Shown piece by piece: positions 6,797-22,185 of a stretch of DNA of 23,107 nt. The translations under genes were made by a program, and so were the position numbers. Position 1 is the stretch's first letter. Every line of letters begins with the position of its first letter. Where the stretch lies: positions 1-23,107 of IMG/VR virus record IMGVR_UViG_3300032241_002751; one strand, given 5' to 3'. The stretch is from a virus. A model generated the notes under the pieces. The model was not told where the DNA came from. It ran no database searches and was given only the letters and a program-made list of their open reading frames with translations.

Positions 6797-7450
6797 ATGA
6801 AGATTGATGTTAATACAGTTAATGTTTTGAAGAACTTCGCTAAAATTAATGGTTCTATCCTTGTTCAAGAAGGCAATGTCTTAAAGACGGTGTCGCCTTC
6901 TAAGACTATTTTAGCCAAGGCGGTTGTGAACGATAAGTTTAAGACTAAGTTTGCAATTTATAATTTGGATCGTTTTATCTCAACTCTGAGTTTATTCAAC
7001 GATCCATCTCTAGAGTTTGGCGAAAAGTCTGTAAATATTTCTGATTCAAATAAGAACATAAACTATGTTTATGCTGATGAATCAACTATTACTAAGCCAC
7101 CAGAAAAGCAAATTACTCTACCTACGTCAGACGTTACATTTAATCTTACAAATGAAAGTTTGAAGGATGTAGAAAAGGCTTCTGGTGTTCTTAGTTTGCC
7201 TGAAATTGTAGTTTCAGGTGATGGTACCAATATTTACTTACAAGCAATGGATACTAAGAACCCATCAGGTGATGTGTATTCTATTACTATTGGTAAAACA
7301 AAGAAGACATTCAAGGCAGTATTTAAGTCTGAGAATATTAAGATTATCCCAGGAGAATATGAAGTAACAATTTCTTCAAAGGGCATTTCCCACTTCAAGG
7401 GAAACAATATTGAATATTGGATTGCAATCGAACAATCTTCTTCTTTTTGA
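6797..7450 (+). CDS. 45: DNA polymerase sliding clamp gp45
   Basis: This 217-residue protein is close in size to T4 gp45 (228). It has the look of the phage PCNA-like clamp: MKIDVNTVNVLKNFAKING at the start, NLDRFISTLSLF in the first domain, a second-domain strand with GTNIYLQAMDTKNP, and a C-terminal end YWIAIEQSSSF. The trimer encircles DNA, holds the polymerase in place and in T4 also activates late transcription. The start has a strong TTAAGGAG site. It heads the clamp / clamp loader / RegA order that is conserved in T4-like genomes. A terminator follows directly, so it can be expressed as a separate transcript from gene 44. Its AAG-rich Lys codons are consistent with high expression. Confidence 0.93.
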   Translation: MKIDVNTVNVLKNFAKINGSILVQEGNVLKTVSPSKTILAKAVVNDKFKTKFAIYNLDRFISTLSLFNDPSLEFGEKSVNISDSNKNINYVYADESTITKPPEKQITLPTSDVTFNLTNESLKDVEKASGVLSLPEIVVSGDGTNIYLQAMDTKNPSGDVYSITIGKTKKTFKAVFKSENIKIIPGEYEVTISSKGISHFKGNNIEYWIAIEQSSSF

Positions 7451-7477
7451 TGGGGCGTTAAGCCCCACCTTTTTTTA
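7451..7477 (+). terminator. Rho-independent terminator after gp45
   Basis: A GC-rich hairpin has arms TGGGGC (7451-7456) and GCCCCA (7462-7467) around a 5-base loop. It is followed by CC and a run of seven T. It starts immediately after the gp45 stop and precedes gene 44, allowing clamp mRNA to be made in excess over clamp loader mRNA. Confidence 0.9.
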
Positions 7478-7492
7478 TTATGGAGTTATATT

Positions 7493-8431
7493 ATGAATGA
7501 ACAGTTCCTATGGTGTGAAAAATATCGTCCGAAAACTATTAGTGAAACGATTTTACCAAATGAACTAAAAAATACTTTTCAACAATTTGTTAATCAGAAA
7601 AACATTCCTAACATGATTCTATCAGGTTCTGCAGGAGTTGGTAAAACTACTGTTGCAAAAGCTATGCTTGAAGAACTTGGTTGCGATTATATTACTATCA
7701 ATGGATCAATGAATGGAAACATTGATACTCTGAGAAATCAAATTTTAAACTTTGCTTCATCTGTTTCTTTAACAGGCGGTAGGAAATATGTAATTCTTGA
7801 TGAGGCGGATTATCTAAATGCCAATTCTACTCAGCCAGCATTACGCAACTTTATGGAAGAGTATTCTAAAAATTGTGGCTTTATTCTAACTTGTAATTAC
7901 AAAAACAAAATTATTGAGCCACTACATTCAAGGTGTTCTGTTATTGATTTTAAAATTGATAAAAAGGAACTTACCAAACTAGCATCTCAATTTTTTAAGA
8001 GAATTCAGTCTATCTTAGAAAAAGAAAATATCAGCTATGATAAATCTGTTGTTGCAGAATTAATCAAGAAGCATTTCCCCGATTGGCGACGAGTTCTTAA
8101 TGAACTGCAGAGATATTCTGCAACAGGTTCTATTGATTCTGGCATTCTTACGAATGTTTTGGAAATTTCCATCAAAGAATTAATTAATCTGTTAAAGAAC
8201 AAACAGTTTACAGATATTCGTAAATGGGTTGCTGAGAATATTGATAACGATCAAAACTTAGTATTCAGAAAGCTCTATGATACTTGTTCTGAATATTTGA
8301 CCAAACAAAGTGTACCGCAACTGGTTTTACTTTTGGCCAAGTATCAATATCAAGCAGCATTTGCTGTTGATTCTGAAATTAATCTCATGGCATGTTTAAC
8401 AGAAATGATGATTGATTGTGAGTTTGTTTGA
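7493..8431 (+). CDS. 44: Clamp loader ATPase large subunit gp44
   Basis: This 312-residue AAA+ ATPase matches T4 gp44 (319). It opens the sliding clamp and loads it at primer-template junctions together with gp62. Motifs are WCEKYRPKTISE at the N-terminus (typical of clamp loader subunits), Walker A GSAGVGKTT (45-53), Walker B ILDEAD (101-106), and the SRC motif (146-148) with the arginine finger that acts across subunits. The helical collar domain follows. The start has a GGAG site 10 bases upstream. The stop overlaps the start of gene 62 (TGATG), keeping subunit synthesis coupled as in T4. Confidence 0.95.
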   Translation: MNEQFLWCEKYRPKTISETILPNELKNTFQQFVNQKNIPNMILSGSAGVGKTTVAKAMLEELGCDYITINGSMNGNIDTLRNQILNFASSVSLTGGRKYVILDEADYLNANSTQPALRNFMEEYSKNCGFILTCNYKNKIIEPLHSRCSVIDFKIDKKELTKLASQFFKRIQSILEKENISYDKSVVAELIKKHFPDWRRVLNELQRYSATGSIDSGILTNVLEISIKELINLLKNKQFTDIRKWVAENIDNDQNLVFRKLYDTCSEYLTKQSVPQLVLLLAKYQYQAAFAVDSEINLMACLTEMMIDCEFV

Positions 8432-9218: not shown

Positions 9219-9569
9219 ATGTTACCATGGAAAATTGTGAAAAAAACTTATACGCCTGCAGATAAGAAAATTGAAGAAATAAAAAATATTCTTTTTCCTC
9301 CAATGAAACTTAAAGAAGAACTAATCGAAGGAACCCCATTTAAGTACCATATTGATTATTCTGTTGACTCTAATTTAGATGCTGCGCTTATCGATTTGCA
9401 AGAAGGTCACAATGACCAAGTTACGCAAAATACGATAAACGCAGCAATTAAAAAATTACATCAAATTAGGAAAATACTTGAAGCATACTCGGAATTTGAT
9501 AAAGACGCCAAGTATATAATTGTTGATAACGAAGACCAAGAAGCTGATATTATTGCTTCTGATAATTAA
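9219..9569 (+). CDS. Conserved T4-like hypothetical protein
   Basis: This 116-residue soluble acidic protein has no catalytic motif that I recognise. Its features are an N-terminal WKIVKKTYTPADKKIEEI segment, ILFPPMKLKEELIEG, a central DSNLDAALIDLQEG and a helical IKKLHQIRKILEAYSEFD segment, ending AKYIIVDNEDQEADI. I recall a similar protein encoded near regA in T4-like cyanophages, without known function. A ribosome binding site (AAGG) is present. Its stop overlaps by 4 bases the 3' end of the convergent o-spanin gene, so its transcript must end in, or run antisense through, the spanin cassette. Confidence 0.75.
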   Translation: MLPWKIVKKTYTPADKKIEEIKNILFPPMKLKEELIEGTPFKYHIDYSVDSNLDAALIDLQEGHNDQVTQNTINAAIKKLHQIRKILEAYSEFDKDAKYIIVDNEDQEADIIASDN

Positions 9570-9844
9570 TGCTTGTTTATAGTTTGTTGAGCGTCGTTTA
9601 GGTAATTTTTAATAGCGGTAATTGAATTTTTACAAACTTTATTATCTTGATATAAAGTTATAATCAATTTAGCTACTGCTATATCATCCAAATTTTTTGG
9701 ATTTGGAAACGTTTTAATTGTCGGACAACGAAAAAAACTGTCATTAGGCATAACTGAAATATATTTTGTTTCTACTAAATTTGGTTGAGCAGAATTACAT
9801 CCTGCTAGAATTAGTAACGTTGGTATAACTAATAATTTTCTCAT
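9566..9844 (-). CDS. o-spanin, outer-membrane lipoprotein (Rz1-like)
   Basis: This 92-residue protein starts MRKLLVIPTLLILAGCNS, a lipoprotein signal peptide with lipobox LAGC, so Cys16 would be lipidated and the mature protein (about 77 residues) anchored to the outer membrane. o-Spanins pair with an inner-membrane i-spanin to fuse the membranes at the last step of lysis. The start overlaps the i-spanin stop by 4 bases (ATGA). The pair is therefore a separate overlapping spanin operon on the minus strand. The mature part has two further Cys (in FRCPT and KVCKN) that could form a disulfide. A spanin implies a Gram-negative host. Confidence 0.85.
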   Translation of the reverse strand: MRKLLVIPTLLILAGCNSAQPNLVETKYISVMPNDSFFRCPTIKTFPNPKNLDDIAVAKLIITLYQDNKVCKNSITAIKNYLNDAQQTINKH

Positions 9845-10209
9845 TGATCTTTCCCTAATTCTTCTATTGTTCTTTTTAAGATATCAGAAGATGTTTTGTC
9901 ATCTTTTTTTGCTTCATCTGAATTTAAATATTTATTTAAATTGTCAAGAGAGTTAATTAGTTGTTGATTTTTTGTAGTTAGATCGTCTATAATTTTTTTC
10001 TGATCGTCGTTCAATTTATTTAAGTTATCATTAATTATTTTTTGGTCTTTTAATGTTTGTTCTAATTGTTTGTTATTAAATTCGAGTAATGCCTGTTTTT
10101 CAATGGAATGTTTCCATGTAAAATAAGCTATTGTTATTGCGGTTATTATGACTGTGATAAATAGAAAATATCTAACTATTTTACTTCCCAATAATGCAAA
10201 AACAAACAT
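9841..10209 (-). CDS. i-spanin, inner-membrane lysis protein (Rz-like)
   Basis: This 122-residue protein has one N-terminal membrane segment (about residues 13-31, VRYFLFITVIITAITIAYF) followed by a long Gln/Asn/Lys-rich coiled coil, exactly the layout of Rz-type i-spanins. The frame is open further upstream to 10266, but ATG at 10209 has a perfect AGGAGG ribosome binding site 4 bases before it, so it is the start. A TATAAATA late promoter box lies 24 bases upstream on the same strand. It is coupled to the o-spanin gene and stands opposite to all neighbouring genes. Confidence 0.85.
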   Translation of the reverse strand: MFVFALLGSKIVRYFLFITVIITAITIAYFTWKHSIEKQALLEFNNKQLEQTLKDQKIINDNLNKLNDDQKKIIDDLTTKNQQLINSLDNLNKYLNSDEAKKDDKTSSDILKRTIEELGKDQ

Positions 10210-10232
10210 TTTATCCTCCTCTTTTATAGGAT

Positions 10233-10240
10233 TATTTATA
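10233..10240 (-). promoter_or_regulatory. T4-type late promoter box for the spanin genes
   Basis: On the minus strand the sequence reads TATAAATA, the exact T4 late consensus. It is 24 bases before the i-spanin start with an AGGAGG site in between. Position and strand fit late expression of a lysis cassette. The box also abuts the ATG of the divergent gene at 10240. Confidence 0.7.
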
Positions 10241-10449
10241 TGGCATATGTAGTAGTTCCTGAACATATTATTATTGATGCAGATTCTGCGATGATGGAAG
10301 AGAATGACGAAACTAGTTCTTTTAATAAAGTTTTAAATGCGGGAACTGAAATCAAAAATGCTGGGTTAACTCCAATCTATATGTTAGATACAGAGAAGAT
10401 GGATTTACTCGTCGTAGTTAAAGAATATATTGGAAAAAAGTTGCACTGA
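10240..10449 (+). CDS. Small hypothetical protein
   Basis: This 69-residue protein opens with a hydrophobic beta-like stretch (AYVVVPEHIIIDADSA), followed by an acidic segment (MEENDETSS) and a closing TEKMDLLVVVKEYIGKK. No membrane segment or known motif is seen, and I do not recognise the family. The ATG overlaps the minus-strand late promoter of the spanin cassette, with a weak AGGA 9 bases upstream. A terminator-like hairpin follows 36 bases after the stop. Protein-like composition and coding direction support a real gene. Confidence 0.55.
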   Translation: MAYVVVPEHIIIDADSAMMEENDETSSFNKVLNAGTEIKNAGLTPIYMLDTEKMDLLVVVKEYIGKKLH

Positions 10450-11919: not shown

Positions 11920-11967
11920 TAGCGGTTTGTGGGCCGAAAAGGCCGAACGCGCAGAAAGGATTTCATC

Positions 11968-13422
11968 ATGTTCTATACAAACGTATTCATCCGCGGAGAT
12001 TTCATTTATCTCCGCGGATTCGATAAGGGTCTTCGAATCAAGGAAAAGATAAATTATAAACCATATGTTTTTATTCCAAGTAATAAAGGAAATTATAAAA
12101 CATTACAAAACAAGTCTGTTGATAAACTTGTATTTGATAGCATTAAAGATGCAAAGGGGTTTATTGAAAAGTACAGCGAAGTTTCCAATTTTGAATTTTA
12201 TGGATTAACAGGGCCAAACTTCAAGTATCTTTATATTTTCGATAATTTTAAAGGTGATATTGATTATGATCCTCAACTAGTCAAGGTAGGCACATTAGAT
12301 ATTGAGTGTGCTGCTGACGAAGGGTTTCCTAGTATTGAAAGAGCAGATAAGCCTCTGACTGCTATTACTATTCGTAGCAGAGGTAGAAATTATGTATTCG
12401 GTTGTGGAGATTTTAAGTCCAATGATCCCAATACATATTATCTAAAGTGTAAAGATGAACATGATCTAGTTCAGAAGTTTATTGATGCATGGGAAAAGCT
12501 AGACCTTGATATTGTCACAGGTTGGAACATTGAGTTTTTCGATATTCCTTATCTTGTCAATCGCATCAAGCTTCTGTTCGGCGAAGCTCATGCCAAGCGA
12601 CTATCACCATATAAAATACTCGATTCTAAAATGATAGAGTTTCGTGGTAAGGAAAATCAAAGCTATTCTCTGGCAGGGATAGCAGTGATGGATTATTATC
12701 AACTTTATCGTAAGTTTACTTTCGGTAATCAGGAAAGTTATAAGCTAGATTATATTGCTCAGGTTGAACTGGGCGAGAACAAGATTGACTATTCTGAGTA
12801 TGGTAATCTATTAGAACTGTATAAGAAAAACTTTCAGAAGTTTATTGAGTATAACATTCATGACTGTGTTCTGGTTGATAGACTTGATGATAAGATGAAG
12901 TTTATTGAACAGGTCATGGCCATTGCATATGATGCCAAGGTTAATTATGAAGATACTATGACCACAGTTAAACCTTGGGATATTATCATTCATAATTATT
13001 TGCTTGAAAGGAATATTGTTATTCCGCAGTTTGAACCTTCTCATGAAGATTTCGAACTGGTTGGCGGTCATGTTAAGGAAGTTAATCCAGGGTTATATAA
13101 GTGGGTTGTAAGTTTCGATCTTAACAGTCTATATCCTCATCTTATTATGCAATATAATATTAGCCCAGAAACGTTTGTTAATAGGATTGAATTTCCATCA
13201 ATTGACTATTTGCTTAATGGTACATGGGAATATCGTGATGGTTCAGTAGCATATGCTGCCAATGGATGCACATATAGAAAAGACAAGCAGGGCTTTCTTC
13301 CTGCTCTGATGGAAAAGATGTATAATGATCGTGTTGTCTATAAGCAGAAAATGATTGAAGCTAAGAAAGAACTTGAAGAAATTGAAAAAGAAATGAAAAT
13401 TCGTGGATTATTGGCTAATTAA
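11968..13422 (+). CDS. 43: DNA polymerase gp43, N-terminal part (exonuclease domain and motif A)
   Basis: This 484-residue piece holds the N-terminal, 3'-5' exonuclease and first palm portions of a T4-like family B polymerase. The start at ATG 11968 (MFYTNVF) has GAAAGGA upstream; an in-frame ATG at 11929 lies in the leader. Exo I is LDIECAADE (D111, E113; T4 has D112, E114). Exo II is VTGWNIEFFD, Exo III YNIHDCVLVD, and motif A SFDLNSLYPHL with D384. The frame ends at TAA 13420-13422, a few codons after the lysine/glutamate-rich helix KELEEIEKEMKIRG. Motifs B and C are encoded downstream, beyond an insertion. As in some Aeromonas T4-like phages, the polymerase might function as two chains, but the second part has its own defect. 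Confidence 0.93.
   Translation: MFYTNVFIRGDFIYLRGFDKGLRIKEKINYKPYVFIPSNKGNYKTLQNKSVDKLVFDSIKDAKGFIEKYSEVSNFEFYGLTGPNFKYLYIFDNFKGDIDYDPQLVKVGTLDIECAADEGFPSIERADKPLTAITIRSRGRNYVFGCGDFKSNDPNTYYLKCKDEHDLVQKFIDAWEKLDLDIVTGWNIEFFDIPYLVNRIKLLFGEAHAKRLSPYKILDSKMIEFRGKENQSYSLAGIAVMDYYQLYRKFTFGNQESYKLDYIAQVELGENKIDYSEYGNLLELYKKNFQKFIEYNIHDCVLVDRLDDKMKFIEQVMAIAYDAKVNYEDTMTTVKPWDIIIHNYLLERNIVIPQFEPSHEDFELVGGHVKEVNPGLYKWVVSFDLNSLYPHLIMQYNISPETFVNRIEFPSIDYLLNGTWEYRDGSVAYAANGCTYRKDKQGFLPALMEKMYNDRVVYKQKMIEAKKELEEIEKEMKIRGLLAN
11989..12019 (+). repeat. Perfect 12-base stem within the first codons of gp43
   Basis: ATCCGCGGAGAT (11989-12000) and ATCTCCGCGGAT (12008-12019) are perfect complements around a 7-base loop (TTCATTT). 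The stem starts 21 bases after the A of the ATG and is very GC-rich for this genome. In mRNA it would be a strong hairpin just inside the ribosome footprint, suited to translational control. No T run follows. Confidence 0.8.
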
Positions 13423-13439
13423 AATAACAATTACCAATA
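13409..13439 (+). repeat. Hairpin at the gp43/insertion junction
   Basis: TATTGG-C-TAATT (13409-13420) pairs with AATTA-CCAATA (13429-13439): 11 base pairs with a single bulged C and an 8-base loop. The gp43 stop codon TAA (13420-13422) lies at the loop edge. It marks the boundary where polymerase-like sequence gives way to endonuclease-like sequence. Confidence 0.55.
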
Positions 13440-13745
13440 GCTCAACAAAATATTCAAATAGCTATCACTAAAAATAGAGGAAGAAAACGACCAAAACATT
13501 CTGAATTTATGTCAAAATATTTTTCCGAATTTTGGAAAAATAATAAAGAAAAAATGCGAGATGCATTATCAACAACTTTTCAAGCAATTTCACCAACAGG
13601 AGAAATTTATCTAACAAATAGATTACAAGAATTTTGCGAAAATAAAAATTTAAGTTATAGTACTTTATGGACTACAAGTAAAACTGGTATTACACCCAAA
13701 AAAGGGAGAAGTAAAGGATGGTTATGTCGAAACTTAGCGCCTTGA
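13428..13745 (+). pseudogene. Homing endonuclease remnant (C-terminal DNA-binding part only)
   Basis: The frame is open from 13428 (after TAA at 13425) to 13745. It encodes NRGRKRPKHSEFMSKYF, a NUMOD3-like motif of GIY-YIG/HNH homing endonucleases. A stretch SPTGEIYLTNRLQEFCENKN followed by LSYSTLWTT and ending SKGWLCR matches their NUMOD1-like helix-turn-helix tail. No nuclease domain (GIY-YIG or HNH) precedes it, only about 15 codons without a start, so the element is truncated; the internal ATG 13509 would give a 78-residue fragment. It sits inside gp43 between motif A and motif B and overlaps the resumed polymerase frame by 22 bases. Intron-less insertion of a free-standing endonuclease, now decayed, is the simplest reading. 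Confidence 0.72.
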
Positions 13746-14821
13746 GAAAGGAGGAGCTTATTGCGCGCCGTGAGCAGTTGATTAAGGATGTTGCTCGCTA
13801 TCAAAATCTTCAGATGGCGAAAAAAATCCAACTCAATTCTGCTTATGGCGCTCTTTAGCTTGGTAATAGATACTTCCGTTGGTTCTCATTCAATAATGCG
13901 GAGGCTATTACAACTTCAGGTCAGCTTTCTATTCGTTGGATCGAAAGAAAGATGAACAAGTTTATGAATAAAATTTGTAAAACTAAAGATGTAGATTATG
14001 TAATTGCATCAGATACAGATTCTATCTATGTTACTTTTGCTAATCTGATACCTGATAACTCAGATGAACTAGAAGCTGTTAAGTTAATTGATAACTTCTG
14101 TGAAAAATATATTCAATCATATATTGATAAATGTTATGATGAACTTGCGGGTATGATGAATGCATATCAGCAGAAGATGAAGATGAAGCGCGAAACTATC
14201 GCAAATAAGGGCATCTGGAAAGCTAAGAAGATGTATATTCTAAATGCCTGGAATATCGAAGGTGTACAGTTTGATAAACCTAAGTTAAAGATTCAAGGGA
14301 TTGAAGCAGTTAGAAGTTCAACTCCACATGCTTGCAGAGAAAACATCAAGAACTCTCTGTCTATCATGATGAACGAAAACCAAGAAACTCTGATTCAGTT
14401 CATTGAAAAATTCAAGAACGAATTTATTAATCTCTCGTTTGAAAATATTGCATTTCCAAGAGGAGTAAAGGGTATTGGGAAATATAAAGATTCTGCATTA
14501 ATTTATAAAAAGGGAACTCCTATTCATGTTAAAGGAGCGTTATTGTTTAATAACATGATTAAAAAGTTAAACATAAAAAGTATCCCACCAATTTCTGATG
14601 GCGATAAAATTAAATTCGCATATTTAAAGATACCAAATCCCATACAGGATACTGTTATTTCAACGCCAGATGAATTGCCAAATGAACTAGGACTAGATAA
14701 ATATATTGACAGAGACAAGCAATTTGATAAATCATTTCTTGAACCAATTAAATCTATTGCTAATATTATTGGTTGGGAAGTTGAACACAAATCAACTTTG
14801 GAAAGTTTTTTCGATGGTTAA
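13724..14821 (+). CDS. 43: DNA polymerase gp43, C-terminal part (motifs B and C), with in-frame TAG at 13856
   Basis: Frame 2 resumes polymerase sequence from ATG 13724, which has AAAGGA 5 bases upstream. MSKLSALRKEELIARREQL leads to the motif B region MAKKIQLNSAYGAL. A TAG (13856-13858) follows, then CTT and GNRYFRWFSFNNAEAITTSG, normally contiguous with SAYGAL. Motif C is IASDTDSIYV (DTD at 14012-14020). The thumb follows, ending KSTLESFFDG, which resembles the clamp-binding tail of gp43. Without the TAG the two parts total about 850 residues (T4 gp43: 898). The next start after the TAG, ATG 13952, would lose part of the palm. Either the stop is read through or bypassed, or this is a broken gene or sequence artefact. 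Confidence 0.8.
13853..13861 (+). other. CTT-TAG-CTT site inside polymerase motif B (possible ribosome hop)
   Basis: A stop codon is bracketed by two identical Leu codons, exactly between the Leu of SAYGAL and the Gly of GNRYF. Removing six bases (TAGCTT or CTTTAG) restores the family's unbroken motif. Matched take-off and landing codons around a stop are the arrangement needed for a peptidyl-tRNA hop. Whether it happens is unknown. Confidence 0.45.
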
Positions 14822-17040: not shown

Positions 17041-18441
17041 ATGAGTTTGGAATTGGTTATATTAGAAAATCTATTATACAACGAAGAGTATACTAGAAAG
17101 GTTATACCATTTTTAAAGTCAGAATATTTTTCAGATTATAACGAAAGAGTTATCTATGAAACCATAGATACTTTTTTCAAGAAGTTTAACGTTTGTCCAT
17201 CAATAGAATCTTTGTCAATTGATCTTTCTAATGTTCAATTGAATGAAAATTCTTTTAAGACGTGTAAAGAAATTGTTTCTGGTCTTAGCAAACCAGAAAC
17301 AAATACTGACTGGCTTATGGGTCAAACAGAAAAGTGGTGTCAAGAAAAAGCGATTTATAATGCACTAATGCATTCTATTTCTATTCTTGATGATAAATCA
17401 GGTAAACAATCAAAGGGAGCAATCCCTCAGATATTGTCTGATGCGATTGCTGTATCTTTTGATACGCATATCGGCCATGATTTCATTGATGATTTCGAAG
17501 CCCGCTATGAGTTCTATCACAAGAAAGAAGTCAGAATACCTTTTGATCTTGATTACATGAATAAGATCACAGGTGGCGGTCTACCAAGAAAAACTCTCAA
17601 TATTATTATTGCGGGAACTAATGTTGGTAAGTCGCTGTTCATGTGTCATTGTGCAGCTGCAAATTTGATCGCTGGTTCTAACGTTTTGTATATCACTCTT
17701 GAAATGAGTGAAGAAAGAATCGCAGAACGCATTGATGCAAATTTGCTTGATATTACAATGGATGAATTGAAAATCATTCCAAAAGATTTATATGATAAAA
17801 AGATAAATAGAGTTAAGCAGAAAACGGTAGGTAAGTTAATCGTTAAAGAGTATCCAACTGCTGCTGCAGGAAGTGCAAACTTTAGGCATCTAATTAATGA
17901 GTTAAAGATTAAGCGTAACTTTGTTCCTGATATTATCTATATTGATTATTTGAATATCTGTTCTTCCTCAAGACTAAAGCTTAGTTCATCTGTAAATTCT
18001 TATACTTTGGTTAAGGCTATCGCAGAAGAACTAAGAGGGCTTGCAGTTGAAAACAACGTGCCTATTGTTTCTGCAACTCAGGTAAACAGAAGTGGTTTCA
18101 CTGATTCTGATTTTGGTATTGAAAATACTTCTGAGAGTTTTGGTTTGCCAGCAACAGCTGATTTTATGGTTGGATTAATTTCAACTGAAGAATTAGCAGG
18201 GCTCAATCAAATTATGGTTAAGCAGTTAAAGAATAGGTATGGTGATCCAAATATTAATAAACGGTTCGTCATTGGGATTGATCGCAGCAAGATGAGATTG
18301 TATGATGTAGAACAGGAAGCTCAAACATTAACAAATGATGATATGTCGGTTTTCGATAATTCTAAGTTTGGTCATGAAGATAATGAAAGGAGCAGCCCAA
18401 AAAAGAAATTTAACAAAAAAATGTTTGATGGGTTTAAGTAA
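17041..18441 (+). CDS. 41: Replicative DNA helicase gp41 (DnaB-like)
   Basis: This 466-residue helicase (T4 gp41 is 475) forms a hexamer that unwinds the fork in the 5'-3' direction and partners primase. An N-terminal helical domain is followed by a RecA-like motor. Walker A is AGTNVGKS (191-198), the catalytic-Glu region ITLEMSEERIAERID lies around 218-232, and Walker B is IIYIDYLN (298-305). ATQVNRSGF and KNRYGDPN (arginine finger area) follow. The C-terminal tail is charged (SSPKKKFNKK), as is usual. It starts 8 bases after uvsX with GAGG upstream. Confidence 0.95.
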   Translation: MSLELVILENLLYNEEYTRKVIPFLKSEYFSDYNERVIYETIDTFFKKFNVCPSIESLSIDLSNVQLNENSFKTCKEIVSGLSKPETNTDWLMGQTEKWCQEKAIYNALMHSISILDDKSGKQSKGAIPQILSDAIAVSFDTHIGHDFIDDFEARYEFYHKKEVRIPFDLDYMNKITGGGLPRKTLNIIIAGTNVGKSLFMCHCAAANLIAGSNVLYITLEMSEERIAERIDANLLDITMDELKIIPKDLYDKKINRVKQKTVGKLIVKEYPTAAAGSANFRHLINELKIKRNFVPDIIYIDYLNICSSSRLKLSSSVNSYTLVKAIAEELRGLAVENNVPIVSATQVNRSGFTDSDFGIENTSESFGLPATADFMVGLISTEELAGLNQIMVKQLKNRYGDPNINKRFVIGIDRSKMRLYDVEQEAQTLTNDDMSVFDNSKFGHEDNERSSPKKKFNKKMFDGFK

Positions 18442-18621
18442 ATGAAAAAATTAGAACTTTGGTTATTTAAAAAATTGATTAGAAGAAAAATACATCAAGG
18501 TTCTGTACCTGAAATATACAAAATTGTATATGAAGTTTCTTTAAAAGAATATAATAAAGAAAAATCATATACAATACAAAACTATCTAACCGAATGCTTT
18601 CACAAATCTTTCTGGAAATAA
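18442..18621 (+). CDS. Small conserved protein downstream of gp41
   Basis: A 59-residue basic protein starts right after the gp41 stop: MKKLELWLFKKLIRRKIHQG, then EIYKIVYEVSLKEYNKE and NYLTECFHKSFWK. I recall similar small proteins with an N-terminal KLE(I/L)WLF motif after gene 41 in T4-like cyanophages; the function is unknown. The helical, Lys/Arg-rich start could bind nucleic acid or a membrane. No separate ribosome binding site is seen, so it is probably coupled to gp41. The stop overlaps an ATG (TAATG) in the next frame. Confidence 0.7.
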   Translation: MKKLELWLFKKLIRRKIHQGSVPEIYKIVYEVSLKEYNKEKSYTIQNYLTECFHKSFWK

Positions 18622-18635
18622 TGTGGAGAAACATG

Positions 18636-18812
18636 ATGAACTATAGTATTGTTAATGTTGACGATATGTTTGCTGTCAAGGAAACTGCAACGGAACAGAT
18701 TATTAAGACTTTCAAGACAAAAGAAAAGGCTCGTAAGTTAATGAAGCATTTAAATCTTGGTGGTGGATTTGATGCATGGACTCCAACTTTTATTGTTCGT
18801 AAAATCAAGTAA
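18636..18812 (+). CDS. Small hypothetical protein
   Basis: A 58-residue protein begins MNYSIVNVDDMFAVKETATE and has a basic helix KTKEKARKLMKHLN, then GGGFDAWTPTFIVRKIK. The layout (strand, helix, strand) resembles small phage proteins with a single alpha/beta unit; I do not recognise a family. GGAG at 18625-18628 fits ATG 18636 (7 bases) best; ATG 18633 and ATG 18621 are in the same frame. It is the last gene before the noncoding region and late promoter. Confidence 0.65.
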   Translation: MNYSIVNVDDMFAVKETATEQIIKTFKTKEKARKLMKHLNLGGGFDAWTPTFIVRKIK

Positions 18813-18814
18813 AA

Positions 18815-18822
18815 TATAAATA
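18815..18822 (+). promoter_or_regulatory. T4-type late promoter box before the noncoding RNA region
   Basis: TATAAATA matches the T4 late consensus exactly and lies 2 bases after a stop codon, with no protein gene starting for 190 bases. It is positioned to transcribe the structured region 18827-18968. Confidence 0.6.
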
Positions 18823-18826
18823 AGCA

Positions 18827-18968
18827 AAGAGTTTAAATGTTTGAGTAGTAATACTCAAGAGGCAATGCGCATTTTGGATAATTTGCACGGAATAGCTGGG
18901 ACCAACAGTGGGGTTCTGCCCAGCACATTTAAGCTGTTTTAAAGGTGGAGCATGCTCCACCTTTTTTT
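18827..18968 (+). ncRNA. Candidate noncoding RNA, about 140 nt, family not recognised
   Basis: No convincing ORF fills 18813-19005. The region instead has its own promoter box and terminator. It contains a perfect 7-bp hairpin with a GTAA (GNRA) tetraloop (18841-18858), a GCTGGG/CCCAGC stem (18895-18900 with 18919-18924), and a possible closing AAATG/CATTT pairing (18835-18839 with 18870-18874). A competing CAGC/GCTG pairing (18921-18924 with 18933-18936) would disrupt the second stem. GC content is higher than in nearby intergenic DNA. It does not look like a tRNA, and I do not recognise a known riboswitch or sRNA family. It may be a free small RNA or, if termination is conditional, a leader of the late operon. 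Confidence 0.6.
18941..18968 (+). terminator. Rho-independent terminator ending the noncoding RNA
   Basis: AAAGGTGGAGC (18941-18951) pairs perfectly with GCTCCACCTTT (18954-18964), and the T run continues to 18968. This is an 11-bp stem with a very short apparent loop, probably 4 bases in practice. It closes the structured region just before the next late promoter. Confidence 0.93.
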
Positions 18969-18972
18969 ATTT

Positions 18973-18980
18973 TATAAATA
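18973..18980 (+). promoter_or_regulatory. T4-type late promoter box of the head-protein operon
   Basis: TATAAATA, exact T4 late consensus, lies directly after the terminator and 25 bases before the ATG at 19006. It would drive the four coupled genes and the virion gene that follow. Confidence 0.7.
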
Positions 18981-19005: not shown

Positions 19006-19638
19006 ATGATAAAATTCAAAGAACTAATTCTTGAAAACGTAAAAGAGCCAAATCCAAGAGCAATACATTATTTTGATTTGGACGATACTTTATTTTCACA
19101 TGATAATCATAAATTGCGTGTTCATGTTTTAGATCAACATGGCAGAAGAGTTCGTTCTCTGACAAATCAAGAATATAATACGCACCAATTGCCTGATAAT
19201 CATTCATATGATTATAGAGAATTTCGTAATTCTGATTTGTTTGGAGAAACAGCCAAACCAATTAAAAAAACATTATCAAAGCTTAAAGCTTTACAAAAAA
19301 ACGGACATAAAGTTGAGATATTAACTGCTAGACAAGACTTAGATGACAAAGATCGTTTTGCCCATCATATGAAAAAATTCGGCGTTGATATAGATCAAGT
19401 TCATGTAAGAAGAGCAGGTAATTTACCAGGCAAAACTCCTGATGCAAAAGCCTCTGTTGTTCGTGATGCAATTAATAGAAACGGTCATAACGAAGTTCAT
19501 TTATATGACGACTCTCATGAAAATTTAAATAAATTTTTAAGTTTGAAACGTGAACATCCAGAAGTAGAGTTTAACGCTCATCATGTTCAACATGATCCAG
19601 AAACTGGAAAAGTTGCAATTACTACAAGGAAAGTATAA
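19006..19638 (+). CDS. HAD-superfamily phosphatase with capsid-targeting-like N-terminus
   Basis: This 210-residue HAD phosphohydrolase has motif I FDLDDTLF (nucleophile D24, acid D26), motif II ILTARQ (105-110), a basic loop around K143/K148 and the closing acidic motif LYDDSHENL (166-174). Phage HAD proteins of this size include 3'-phosphatase domains of polynucleotide kinases and nucleotidases; the substrate cannot be fixed. The N-terminus MIKFKELILE fits the pattern (M, F at 4, [I/L]-x-E at 8-10) shared by the next three genes, which resembles T4 internal-protein targeting peptides cut by the prohead protease. It is translated late from the 18973 promoter, and its stop overlaps the next start (TAATG). 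Confidence 0.82.
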   Translation: MIKFKELILENVKEPNPRAIHYFDLDDTLFSHDNHKLRVHVLDQHGRRVRSLTNQEYNTHQLPDNHSYDYREFRNSDLFGETAKPIKKTLSKLKALQKNGHKVEILTARQDLDDKDRFAHHMKKFGVDIDQVHVRRAGNLPGKTPDAKASVVRDAINRNGHNEVHLYDDSHENLNKFLSLKREHPEVEFNAHHVQHDPETGKVAITTRKV

Positions 19639-20978
19639 TGTTAAAATTTATAGAATATATAATTGAAAGCAAAGGCGCTTCAACTGCATTTTCCGGCCAT
19701 GCTAACGAACATTTCACACATGCTTTATTAAAAGAATATATCAATCATGTATCTAGGTCTTTAAAAAAAGGTTTAGATTATGATGCAGCGCATGAAGCTG
19801 CGCTTAAACACATGAATAATATTAAATATGAAAAGCATGCAGATATTCCAGAAGTACAAAACTCTCGTCAGTCTTTAGGCGATGATGAGATGTCTGCCAT
19901 ACATAACGACTCTAAAAAAACAGCAACTGCTCTTTTAAACCATATCAAAGACAATTATGGTCATGCTGTTGAAGATTCTTATCATACTGGAAAAATTGGT
20001 CCAAAAGGAGTTAAAGACTTAACTGGCGGTCAAGGTTCTGAGGCTGATATTTTATTGAAAACTAGATCGCCACAGGGTCAACAAGATACAGCTAAAGCTA
20101 TATTAGAACATATTGGTTCTTCTCTAAAATATTCAAAGGCTAAAACGAATCAAATTAAAATTCATTCTCCAACTATAAACAAAATGGCAGAAATAATAGA
20201 TGCGCATCATAAAGCTATGCATGGTAATAGTTCGGGAATACATGAAATATTGAATAATATAGGAAAAGAAGGTATTGCCGCACAAAGAGCAGCTCTTGCA
20301 AAACATCATAATGTACTTTCTGAATATTTTAACAACGCAAAAATACCAAAAATGACATATGCGCCTGTTACAGATGAACATGGTAATATAACTGGCGGCG
20401 CTTTATCACAGGATGCAGTAAGTCATATTAGAGATAGTAAAGATCCTAGATTACAAGCAGCCTATGCAGATATGTCTGCAGAAAATCTTAAAATGAAAAC
20501 TAAAATAGCAGCTACGCTTCATAATGCTATGGCAAATGTTTTAGATCATCGATCTAACGATCCAAATCATGCTGCAATAAAAGAATCATTGTTAAGATCA
20601 ATGGGCAATCTTAAAACGGATAAGCTTCCAACCTTTTTAGTTTCAACAGAAAGAAATAAACCACGAGCATCAATTTATGATACAGGCAATTTTTTTACAC
20701 AACATTTAGCACATAATGGTACAGATCAACATAATTACACAGGAAAATCTACGTTCACAGCAGGTCCCCTTTCATTTGCATTAGATGCAAGACCAACGAC
20801 AAGTAAACCCCCTATTACAAGTTTTCCGATAAACACAACGATTAATGTGTCAGACATTAAAAAAGGATTTGATACGCCTAAAGAAAAATTACCAAAACAA
20901 CAAAACCCAACAACACCGCCACTAAGTAATGATGGTACTCATGGAGGACCAATGTTTAAAGGACCATTAGATGCATAA
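19638..20978 (+). CDS. Virion-associated protein of unknown function, possible PD-(D/E)XK nuclease-like fold
   Basis: This 446-residue protein carries the shared N-terminal motif MLKFIEYIIES. A region GQGSEADILLKT (132-142) followed by SSLKYSK (161-167) resembles the D-x(n)-[E/S]-x-K core of PD-(D/E)XK nucleases, with N-terminal helices containing E24 and H25. This is a weak pattern match and could be wrong. The middle is helical, rich in Ala and His. The C-terminal third is Pro/Thr-rich and low in structure (KLPKQQNPTTPPLSNDGTHGG). It overlaps the next gene by 8 bases. Packaging in the head is inferred from the N-terminus. Confidence 0.65.
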   Translation: MLKFIEYIIESKGASTAFSGHANEHFTHALLKEYINHVSRSLKKGLDYDAAHEAALKHMNNIKYEKHADIPEVQNSRQSLGDDEMSAIHNDSKKTATALLNHIKDNYGHAVEDSYHTGKIGPKGVKDLTGGQGSEADILLKTRSPQGQQDTAKAILEHIGSSLKYSKAKTNQIKIHSPTINKMAEIIDAHHKAMHGNSSGIHEILNNIGKEGIAAQRAALAKHHNVLSEYFNNAKIPKMTYAPVTDEHGNITGGALSQDAVSHIRDSKDPRLQAAYADMSAENLKMKTKIAATLHNAMANVLDHRSNDPNHAAIKESLLRSMGNLKTDKLPTFLVSTERNKPRASIYDTGNFFTQHLAHNGTDQHNYTGKSTFTAGPLSFALDARPTTSKPPITSFPINTTINVSDIKKGFDTPKEKLPKQQNPTTPPLSNDGTHGGPMFKGPLDA

Positions 20979-22185
20979 TTTTTTACAATATTTGACAGAA
21001 GCTGAAGAACAAGAAAAAGGCAAAGCATTAAAACATTTAACACATGTTGAGGATTATGTAATACATGGAGGTCATGAAGGTGTTGCAACTGCAGATCATC
21101 ACCTCCAATCATTACACAATATGTTGCTTGGTAAAAATGCACCAGTTCATGTATCAACTAAATGGGACGGTGCACCGTCAGTAGTTTTTGGACAACACCC
21201 ACAAACAGGTCAATTTTTTGTTGCATCTAAATCTGCTTTTAATAAGACGCCGAAAATAAATTATACCGATGAAGATATTGAAGCCAATCATGGTCATGCT
21301 CCAGGGTTAGTTGAAAAACTAAAAGCGGCGCTACGTTATTTACCTTCAATTATGCCACGTAACGGCGGTGTATATCAAGGCGATTTACTTCATACAGAAG
21401 GCGATGCCAAAACAAAAGGCGGAATGACAAGTATAACGCCTAATACCATTACATATTCAGCCCCAGAAGAATCTGCTGAGGGTCAAAATATGCATAAAAA
21501 ATTAGGAATTGTTGTACATACCAAATATTCAGGTCGCGGCGGTTTAGAAAATTTATCTGCTGGGCCTCTTGATGATAAAACAAGAGCTAAATTTGGCGAA
21601 CATCCGGATGTTAATAATGTTGATCCAAGCGTCCAAGTTAATCCTTCTAACTATACTCCAGAAGAACAAAGACAATTTTTAGAGCATATGGAAAATGCTC
21701 GTAGATCTTATGGGAGAATGGCGCCCGAAGCTATGGATGCTATAGCAGGCCATGGAACTTCTTTAGAAGCTCATATCAATGATATGGTAAGAAAAAGTGG
21801 TGCTCCATCTGTCCAAGGTTATATAGATCATCTCACAGATAAACATAATAAAGAAATATCAAAATTAAAAACTCAAAAATCAATTGATCTAAGAAATCAG
21901 CAACATGAAGCTGTTATTAGGCATATTATTGAAAATCAAAAACATTTTAAAGATGCATTAGATTTACATGGTCATTTACAAAAAGCTAAAAACGTTTTGG
22001 TTGGCGTAATGGCTAAAAATAACCCTTATCATCATAGCGTTGCAGGGCGACCAACTGATCCAGAAGGCGCAGTTGTTGTTGATAAAAATGGTAATATGAG
22101 CAAGTTTGTAAATAGAGATGAATTTTCAAAATTAAATTTTCTAAAAGGCCAATTCCAAAAACAAAAAGCAGAAGAAAATGCTTAG
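20971..22185 (+). CDS. Ligase-like nucleotidyltransferase protein (KxDG motif; DUF6267-like)
   Basis: This 404-residue protein contains the active-site motif of ATP-dependent DNA/RNA ligases and capping enzymes, KWDGAPSVVFG (K64 as likely AMP-accepting lysine). Other expected elements are SKSAFNK (about 86-92), VYQGDLL (134-140, motif III-like), GIVVHTKYSG (179-188), and near the C-terminus EGAVVVDKNGN (365-375, motif IV-like) with SKFVN (377-381, motif V-like). A helical insertion occupies about 215-340. The N-terminus MHNFLQYLTEA has the shared capsid-targeting-like pattern with LTE at 8-10. It overlaps genes on both sides by 8 bases. Whether it joins nucleic acid is unproven; related phage proteins are mostly unannotated. 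Confidence 0.72.
   Translation: MHNFLQYLTEAEEQEKGKALKHLTHVEDYVIHGGHEGVATADHHLQSLHNMLLGKNAPVHVSTKWDGAPSVVFGQHPQTGQFFVASKSAFNKTPKINYTDEDIEANHGHAPGLVEKLKAALRYLPSIMPRNGGVYQGDLLHTEGDAKTKGGMTSITPNTITYSAPEESAEGQNMHKKLGIVVHTKYSGRGGLENLSAGPLDDKTRAKFGEHPDVNNVDPSVQVNPSNYTPEEQRQFLEHMENARRSYGRMAPEAMDAIAGHGTSLEAHINDMVRKSGAPSVQGYIDHLTDKHNKEISKLKTQKSIDLRNQQHEAVIRHIIENQKHFKDALDLHGHLQKAKNVLVGVMAKNNPYHHSVAGRPTDPEGAVVVDKNGNMSKFVNRDEFSKLNFLKGQFQKQKAEENA

Follow-up and report, generated by a model that had tools for sequence, protein, structure and literature searches.

What role would a protein-free late RNA gene have in a T4-like phage, where the late programme is thought to be well understood? The question is raised by a short stretch of DNA from an uncultured T4-like phage. 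To our knowledge, lytic phages have few dedicated structured RNAs, and the majority of the known ones came to light by accident. The DNA analysed, referred to here as the window, comprises 23,107 nt (positions 1 to 23,107 of IMG/VR record IMGVR_UViG_3300032241_002751). Judged by its sequence, the window is a fragment of a T4-like phage. The DnaB-like replicative helicase gp41 (17041-18441) and a UvsX-like recombinase are both confirmed by profile, and clamp-like and clamp-loader-like ORFs upstream of gp41 (6797-8431) were recognized from sequence reading only. The features of the locus 3' of gp41 are the following.

18594..18812, plus strand: small ORF directly 3' of gp41, 72 aa, or 58 aa from an internal Met, with the motif NLGGGFDGWTPxF
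18815..18822, plus strand: first late promoter box TATAAATA, T4-type, predicted to drive the RNA
18828..18969, plus strand: predicted stand-alone RNA of about 140 nt, with ends placed from the box and the terminator
18941..18969, plus strand: intrinsic terminator AAAGGUGGAGCAUGCUCCACCUUU with a U tract, composed of a 10-bp stem, a tetraloop and the U tract
18973..18980, plus strand: second late box TATAAATA, which serves the next late gene (19006-19638)
19006-19638, plus strand: downstream late gene, a HAD-family phosphatase, served by the second TATAAATA box

The first box begins two bases 3' of the stop codon of the small ORF. The 5' end of the RNA is set at 18828, since T4 late transcripts usually begin some 6 nt beyond the box, and the 3' end at 18969 is the U tract of the terminator. 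Within these limits, the RNA is modelled as a closing helix (P1) and three arms.

18830..18840, plus strand: 5' strand of P1, the closing helix, pairing with 18925-18935
18841..18858, plus strand: P2 hairpin UUGAGUA-GUAA-UACUCAA, with a stem kept by covariation and a loop that is not
18859..18864, plus strand: junction strand GAGGCA (GxGGCa in the family), with G, GG and C invariant in the ORF-selected set described below
18866..18887, plus strand: P3 hairpin, weak and variable, which some members have in very weak form or not at all
18889..18894, plus strand: junction strand GGAAUA, with GGAA invariant
18895..18924, plus strand: P4/P5 arm, 99-100% paired with many two-sided changes
18895-18900 with 18919-18924, plus strand: P4 stem GCUGGG/CCCAGC, GC-rich, abutting P1 without a linker
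18901-18905, plus strand: P4 5' bulge ACCAA, single-stranded
18906-18908 with 18916-18918, plus strand: P5, a 3-bp stem CAG/CUG
18909-18915, plus strand: apical loop UGGGGUU, invariant in the ORF-selected set
18925..18935, plus strand: 3' strand of P1, pairing with 18830-18840

Folding of 18823-18972 gives a z of -4.05, and 0 of 200 shuffles are as good. The terminator alone has a z of -4.2, and the RNA core alone has a z of -2.3, with 6 of 200 shuffles as good. Since the terminator supplies much of the fold signal, single-sequence folding is insufficient, and it is the comparative data that settle the fold. Taken alone, the window gives suggestive evidence for a structured RNA. The terminator hairpin and P1 do not overlap.

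An earlier note on this DNA had described a GNRA-capped hairpin, a GC-rich second stem and a competing alternative pairing. The hairpin is present at 18841-18858, but its GNRA loop is peculiar to the window's member and is not conserved in the family. The GC-rich stem is the P4 stem. The competing pairing exists as the MFE pairing ACC/GGU, but covariation favours CAG/CUG capped by UGGGGUU. Both hairpins are real; the long P1 was overlooked, and with it the two become parts of one multibranched RNA, not separate hairpins.

To find relatives, the search was started from gp41 relatives in IMG/VR, which yielded syntenic copies of the RNA. A gapped pattern of the RNA core was used in an IMG/VR scan, and the matches listed are a lower bound: the family occupies at least 272 places with at least 163 distinct sequences. 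These are the covarying homologues upstream of late genes of relatives that the earlier note had suggested looking for. The covariance model R1, built from 15 hand-picked members with the window's RNA left out of training, scores the window's RNA at 63.9 bits (E 3.6e-14). A non-circular set was obtained by choosing loci by the neighbouring small ORF alone, without any RNA pattern. The RNA is present at 78 of these 80 loci. The large contigs carry it as a single copy (14 contigs of 36-173 kb), and the gp41 of RNA-bearing members diverges to 55% identity with that of the window. With their covarying helices, invariant unpaired motifs and fixed locus, the members form a coherent homologous group.

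The two ORF-selected loci without the RNA are L248, where the sequence ends ~110 nt after the ORF, and L217. In L217 the small ORF is followed by a terminator, by the second late box and by a gene homologous to the one downstream in the window, and neither the first box nor the RNA is there. Of the two boxes, the homologous gene thus keeps the second only. L217 is an empty site, with both flanking genes shared with the window. The RNA is also absent at the locus in L016, L021 and L022, whose records are fragments in which the small ORF and terminators are present. At about 4115-4220 of L021, two late boxes are kept with a terminator hairpin alone between them. These natural RNA-less relatives indicate that the RNA is not indispensable at the locus, and a copy elsewhere is possible where the records are fragments.

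The alignments show the RNA, as modelled, to be a cloverleaf-like four-way junction in which P1 closes P2, P3 and P4/P5. In an alignment of 66 distinct rows (A3), 94.4% of pair cells are paired against 70.2% when shuffled, the covariation score is 0.676 against 0.208, and two-sided changes occur in 22 of the 24 pairs. When the registers are slid, pairing falls to 33-52% and the score to 0.05-0.11. The ORF-selected alignment (A5, 49 distinct rows) has 94.3% of cells paired and a covariation score of 0.645, and the divergent type II set (A7) has 89.6% and 0.561. Overall, 94% of pair cells are paired, compared to 70-73% in shuffles. In an all-against-all analysis of mutual information (A6), each of the 17 column pairs with the strongest covariation is a helix pair. 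All nine modelled pairs of P1 have two-sided changes, with 91-93% of cells paired. The alignments were fitted to the model, which favours the modelled structure. Despite this, the drop on a one-column slide and the repetition in three sets leave little doubt about the fold.

The helices vary freely, and the invariant nucleotides are all unpaired, located in two junction strands and one apical loop. GxGGC[A/T] and GGAA are each found in 49/49 distinct A5 RNAs, and the loop UGGGGUU in every distinct A5 row. Two types are distinguished by the P4 arm. Type I members have about five unpaired nucleotides bulging from the 5' side of P4. In type II, a small hairpin takes the place of this bulge and P4 is GAG/CUC instead of GGG/CCC, while UGGGGUU is unchanged. 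G-U cells occur in many helix pairs of the multibranched structure, and most members have a two-nucleotide U-A linker.

P3 is weakly supported. The stability of its hairpin has a combined P of 3e-8 over 58 members, with long clear stems in many type II members; several members show none, and no stable hairpin is predicted in the CACAGAGUA... group. Palindromes of at least 6 nt are found in 39 of 64 P2 arms, compared to 21.8 +/- 2.6 with loops shuffled. A kissing-loop dimer through palindromic P2 loops was considered and rejected, as the signal is largely that of one CUGCAG lineage and many members are without a palindrome. In members L004-L011, a further hairpin (e.g. UUCCGCUU/AAGCGGAA) lies 5' of P1, after the late box, and its variation seems to be compensatory.

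The surroundings of the RNA differ on its two sides. The NLGGGFDGWTPxF small-ORF family lies constantly 5' of the RNA and is a nearly constant upstream neighbour among members. It has no PHROG match and no Pfam match. Small proteins of this kind are found directly after gp41 in hundreds of phage contigs, with 428 confirmed relatives. The gene 3' of the RNA varies widely among members and includes HAD phosphatases, PD-(D/E)XK-like proteins (by eye), DUF6267-type proteins and others. The RNA marks the border of a variable cargo region, where the late cargo genes turn over quickly. In the window, the late proteins after the RNA (starts at 19006, 19638, 20971 and 22178) have an N-terminal motif like M-x-x-F-x-x-[FY]-[IL]-x-E. 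The one at 20971-22185 (404 aa) belongs to DUF6267 / phrog_455, and its KWDG motif recalls nucleotidyltransferases and ligases. Downstream late-cluster proteins of many relatives often start with motifs like MxxFxxFLxEE, which we take to resemble the head-targeting sequences of T4 internal proteins.

Outside these contigs, the RNA was not found in T4, HTVC008M, Cr30, P-SSM2 or S-8S53 by a search with model R2; P-SSM2 and S-8S53 gave weak model hits, which fall within coding genes and were discarded. Searches of named phages by DNA similarity, with three different members as queries, gave chance matches only. The core pattern has 3 hits in about 85,000 bacterial and archaeal species genomes, approximately the chance number and unsupported by the covariance model, and a bacterial origin was rejected. 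psbA is absent from ten large RNA-bearing contigs, so the RNA-bearing phages are not typical marine cyanophages. In the Pelagibacter phage HTVC008M, the interval from gp41 to the next late gene holds a CTAAATA box and a small ORF that is not annotated, but not the RNA. This ORF seems to be the counterpart of the NLGGGFDGWTPxF small ORF, and the arrangement makes the RNA look like an addition to an older one.

The earlier note did not recognize the family and called for an Rfam search with covariance models. Rfam 15 gives 0 matches at the gathering threshold for the window and 8 relatives, and among sub-threshold hits over the RNA in 8 other members, none of the families comes up repeatedly. 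A tRNA or tmRNA identity was rejected: the window and 6 loci were screened with ARAGORN, which detected neither. No paper describing the RNA family was found in the open literature searched; the class is new to Rfam and to that literature. A 2023 study of IMG/VR reportedly listed more than ten thousand candidate structured RNAs, and this RNA may already be present, unnamed, in catalogues of viral RNAs predicted by computer.

Several known RNAs invite comparison. During infection, phi29 produces its own pRNA, a stand-alone multibranched RNA of about 120-175 nt. The new RNA is likewise phage-encoded, multibranched, stand-alone and of similar size, but it belongs to another phage group, its four-way junction is closed by a long P1, and no Rfam sequence or covariance-model match places it in the phi29-type pRNA family. 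RNAs C and D of T4 are small stable RNAs encoded in the T4 tRNA cluster, and their function is unknown. They too are small RNAs of a T4-like phage, whereas the RNA studied here lies after gp41 behind a late box, and T4 has no R2 match. The fold is reminiscent of tRNA: it is cloverleaf-like, with a closing helix, mostly a two-nucleotide U-A linker, three arms and an abutting last arm with a 7-nt loop. It departs from tRNA in a loop, UGGGGUU, that does not qualify as a T loop, in the missing CCA end, in a P1 of more than 7 bp and in junction strands of 6-8 nt. A subset of members (L004 type) has GGAAUUGACGGG, whose likeness to 16S rRNA/tmRNA is most likely a coincidence of a P4 variant; most members read GGAAUAGUCGGG or similar. 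T4-like cyanophages carry CfrI, PhotoRC-II, wcaG, manA, glnA riboswitch and abiF RNAs (PMC9964418). These are also structured RNAs in T4-like phages of water, but they are mostly cis-regulatory, whereas the new RNA has its own late promoter and terminator, occurs in contigs without psbA and has no Rfam match in the members tested. VIPR vrRNAs are phage-encoded, intergenic, GG-rich RNAs of about 100 nt with 9-16 YNNGG repeats in which NN is hypervariable (PMC13142463). Both kinds are phage-encoded and intergenic with GG-rich motifs, but the window sequence and the alignments contain no tract of 9-16 tandem YNNGG repeats, and the new RNA has a covarying four-way junction throughout.

Whether the RNA is a gene of its own depends on its boundaries. 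The box TATAAATA alone is not significant in the AT-rich window, with 5 found and 4.4 expected by chance. In the family, a late box lies at most 45 nt upstream of P1 in 82/82 dereplicated members, versus 9% of random stretches, placing a late-type box a few nt 5' of the RNA start as in a T4-type late unit. A terminator lies within 75 nt after the RNA in 80/81 members, and a second late box follows the terminator in 73/79. The predicted RNA has a median length of 140 nt (range 126-168), and no ORF is conserved across the members. As in bacterial sRNAs, there is an own promoter, a Rho-independent terminator and no ORF. All 256 members with gp41 on the locus lie downstream of gp41, 229 on the same strand and 27 on the opposite one. 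In these 27, the RNA is convergent with gp41 and has its own box and terminator. An opposite-strand RNA converges on the small ORF and so cannot be the 3' UTR of the small ORF or the leader of a late gene. We consider it almost certain that this is a real structured RNA gene of its own. Its transcription as a stand-alone RNA is probable, with the late timing read from the boxes. The earlier note had proposed a stand-alone late RNA rather than a leader, with flanking boxes, a strong terminator, a length of roughly 140 nt and no ORF. These features are confirmed, and the stand-alone reading is supported. The roles it listed as possible, host mRNA control, a protein sponge and a packaging-related RNA, may each still apply.

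A cis-acting element, either a leader or riboswitch-like terminator of the downstream late gene or a structure in the 3' UTR of the gp41 mRNA, would fit the position of the RNA between gp41 with the small ORF and the next late gene. It would also fit the lack of a terminator between the small ORF and the RNA, so that upstream transcripts would read in. This reading is nearly excluded by the 27 convergent copies with their own boxes and terminators, by the late box that the downstream gene itself has in most members, by the wide differences in that gene between members and by the separation of the terminator hairpin from P1. A riboswitch or cis-leader lies always upstream of, and co-oriented with, the gene it controls; the opposite-strand members (27/256) are not so arranged, and a riboswitch was rejected. 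The location at the variable cargo border could also suggest a DNA-level element, a recombination or replication site with palindromes that are merely RNA-like. This we find scarcely credible, as the late promoter and terminator are tied to the RNA in both orientations, many pairs of the multibranched structure contain G-U cells, and the invariant strands are unpaired.

For the function of the RNA, we propose the following. Transcription of the RNA would start at a T4-type late promoter and stop at a terminator, both belonging to the RNA gene itself. The RNA would form a compact four-way junction whose covarying helices hold the unpaired GxGGCa, GGAA and UGGGGUU in place. In the late phase, it would act in trans as a structure-specific ligand of a protein, from phage or host, for which it would be a decoy or a scaffold. 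The combination of invariant unpaired elements with covarying helices is what RNAs recognized by shape display, and for this reason a protein-binding trans RNA is favoured. Given a real RNA gene, protein binding, a guess from the conservation pattern, has a little under an even chance. The whole chain, from stand-alone late structured RNA to a structure-specific protein ligand in trans, likewise stays just short of the balance point. A site of base pairing or of tertiary contact is an equally good reading of the invariant loop.

The main rival to protein binding is a base-pairing regulatory RNA, in which UGGGGUU, perhaps with GGAA, would serve late in infection as the seed for pairing with an mRNA of host or phage, or with a structural RNA of the host. 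All distinct ORF-selected sequences have this loop unchanged and exposed, and the presumed late expression and the U-tract terminator are typical of trans-acting sRNAs. However, there are three invariant unpaired motifs rather than one seed, and the loop is just 7 nt on a rigid 3-bp stem. In the family contigs, the loop complement AACCCCA is not enriched (388 occurrences on both strands, ~247 of which are the RNA genes themselves, versus a permutation mean of 251), and UGGGGUU as an antisense seed for phage targets was rejected on this count. Overall, we regard base pairing as unlikely. A structural RNA of particle assembly or DNA packaging, or one carried in the virion, might by analogy resemble phi29 pRNA. 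The late promoter, the single copy and the compact multibranched fold would suit such a role, as would a place at the head of a late gene cluster whose MxxFxxFLxEE-like starts recall head targeting. It is quite unlikely, because T4, HTVC008M, P-SSM2 and Cr30 are without the RNA, so that T4-type packaging needs none, because L217 lacks it at the locus despite both flanking genes, and because its sequence is not that of a pRNA. An anti-defence RNA that acts as a decoy for an RNA-binding defence protein of the host could account for a gene that adjoins a fast-turnover cargo region and can be missing from close relatives such as L217. This has a slim chance only, as the same core is kept at a fixed locus across deep divergence (gp41 to 55% identity), which is atypical of fast-evolving anti-defence genes, and the RNA was not found to resemble either CRISPR repeats or the repeats of VIPR vrRNAs.

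Within the favoured protein-binding reading, a further step is doubtful: that this phage-specific RNA and a conserved phage protein form a ribonucleoprotein needed for a late step, such as assembly, genome delivery or the take-over of RNA metabolism. If true, a large uncultured T4-like branch would have a new functional class of phage RNA on a par with pRNA, and the shape of this RNA would tolerate two architectures of the P4 bulge, a single strand or an extra hairpin. The novelty lies in the RNA class, defined by covariation in at least 163 distinct sequences at a fixed locus in a widespread T4-like clade. The RNA is also tractable, given an available covariance model, invariant core motifs and natural relatives without the RNA that serve as a control.

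Two other observations concern the rest of the window. A DNA polymerase-like gene at 11929-14821 is in pieces. There is no intron-family match and no real Pfam match. A 497-aa N-terminal part is followed by an insert of about 320 bp. The insert has a 78-aa ORF (13509-13745) that by eye looks like the tail of a homing endonuclease. The polymerase sequence resumes after the insert, with an in-frame TAG at 13857-13859 within CTT TAG CTT. An intron, decay, stop hopping or an assembly error may explain the broken gene. Among the opposite-strand genes, two overlapping ORFs at 9566-10266 (minus strand), one with a lipoprotein-like start, resemble an Rz/Rz1 spanin pair.
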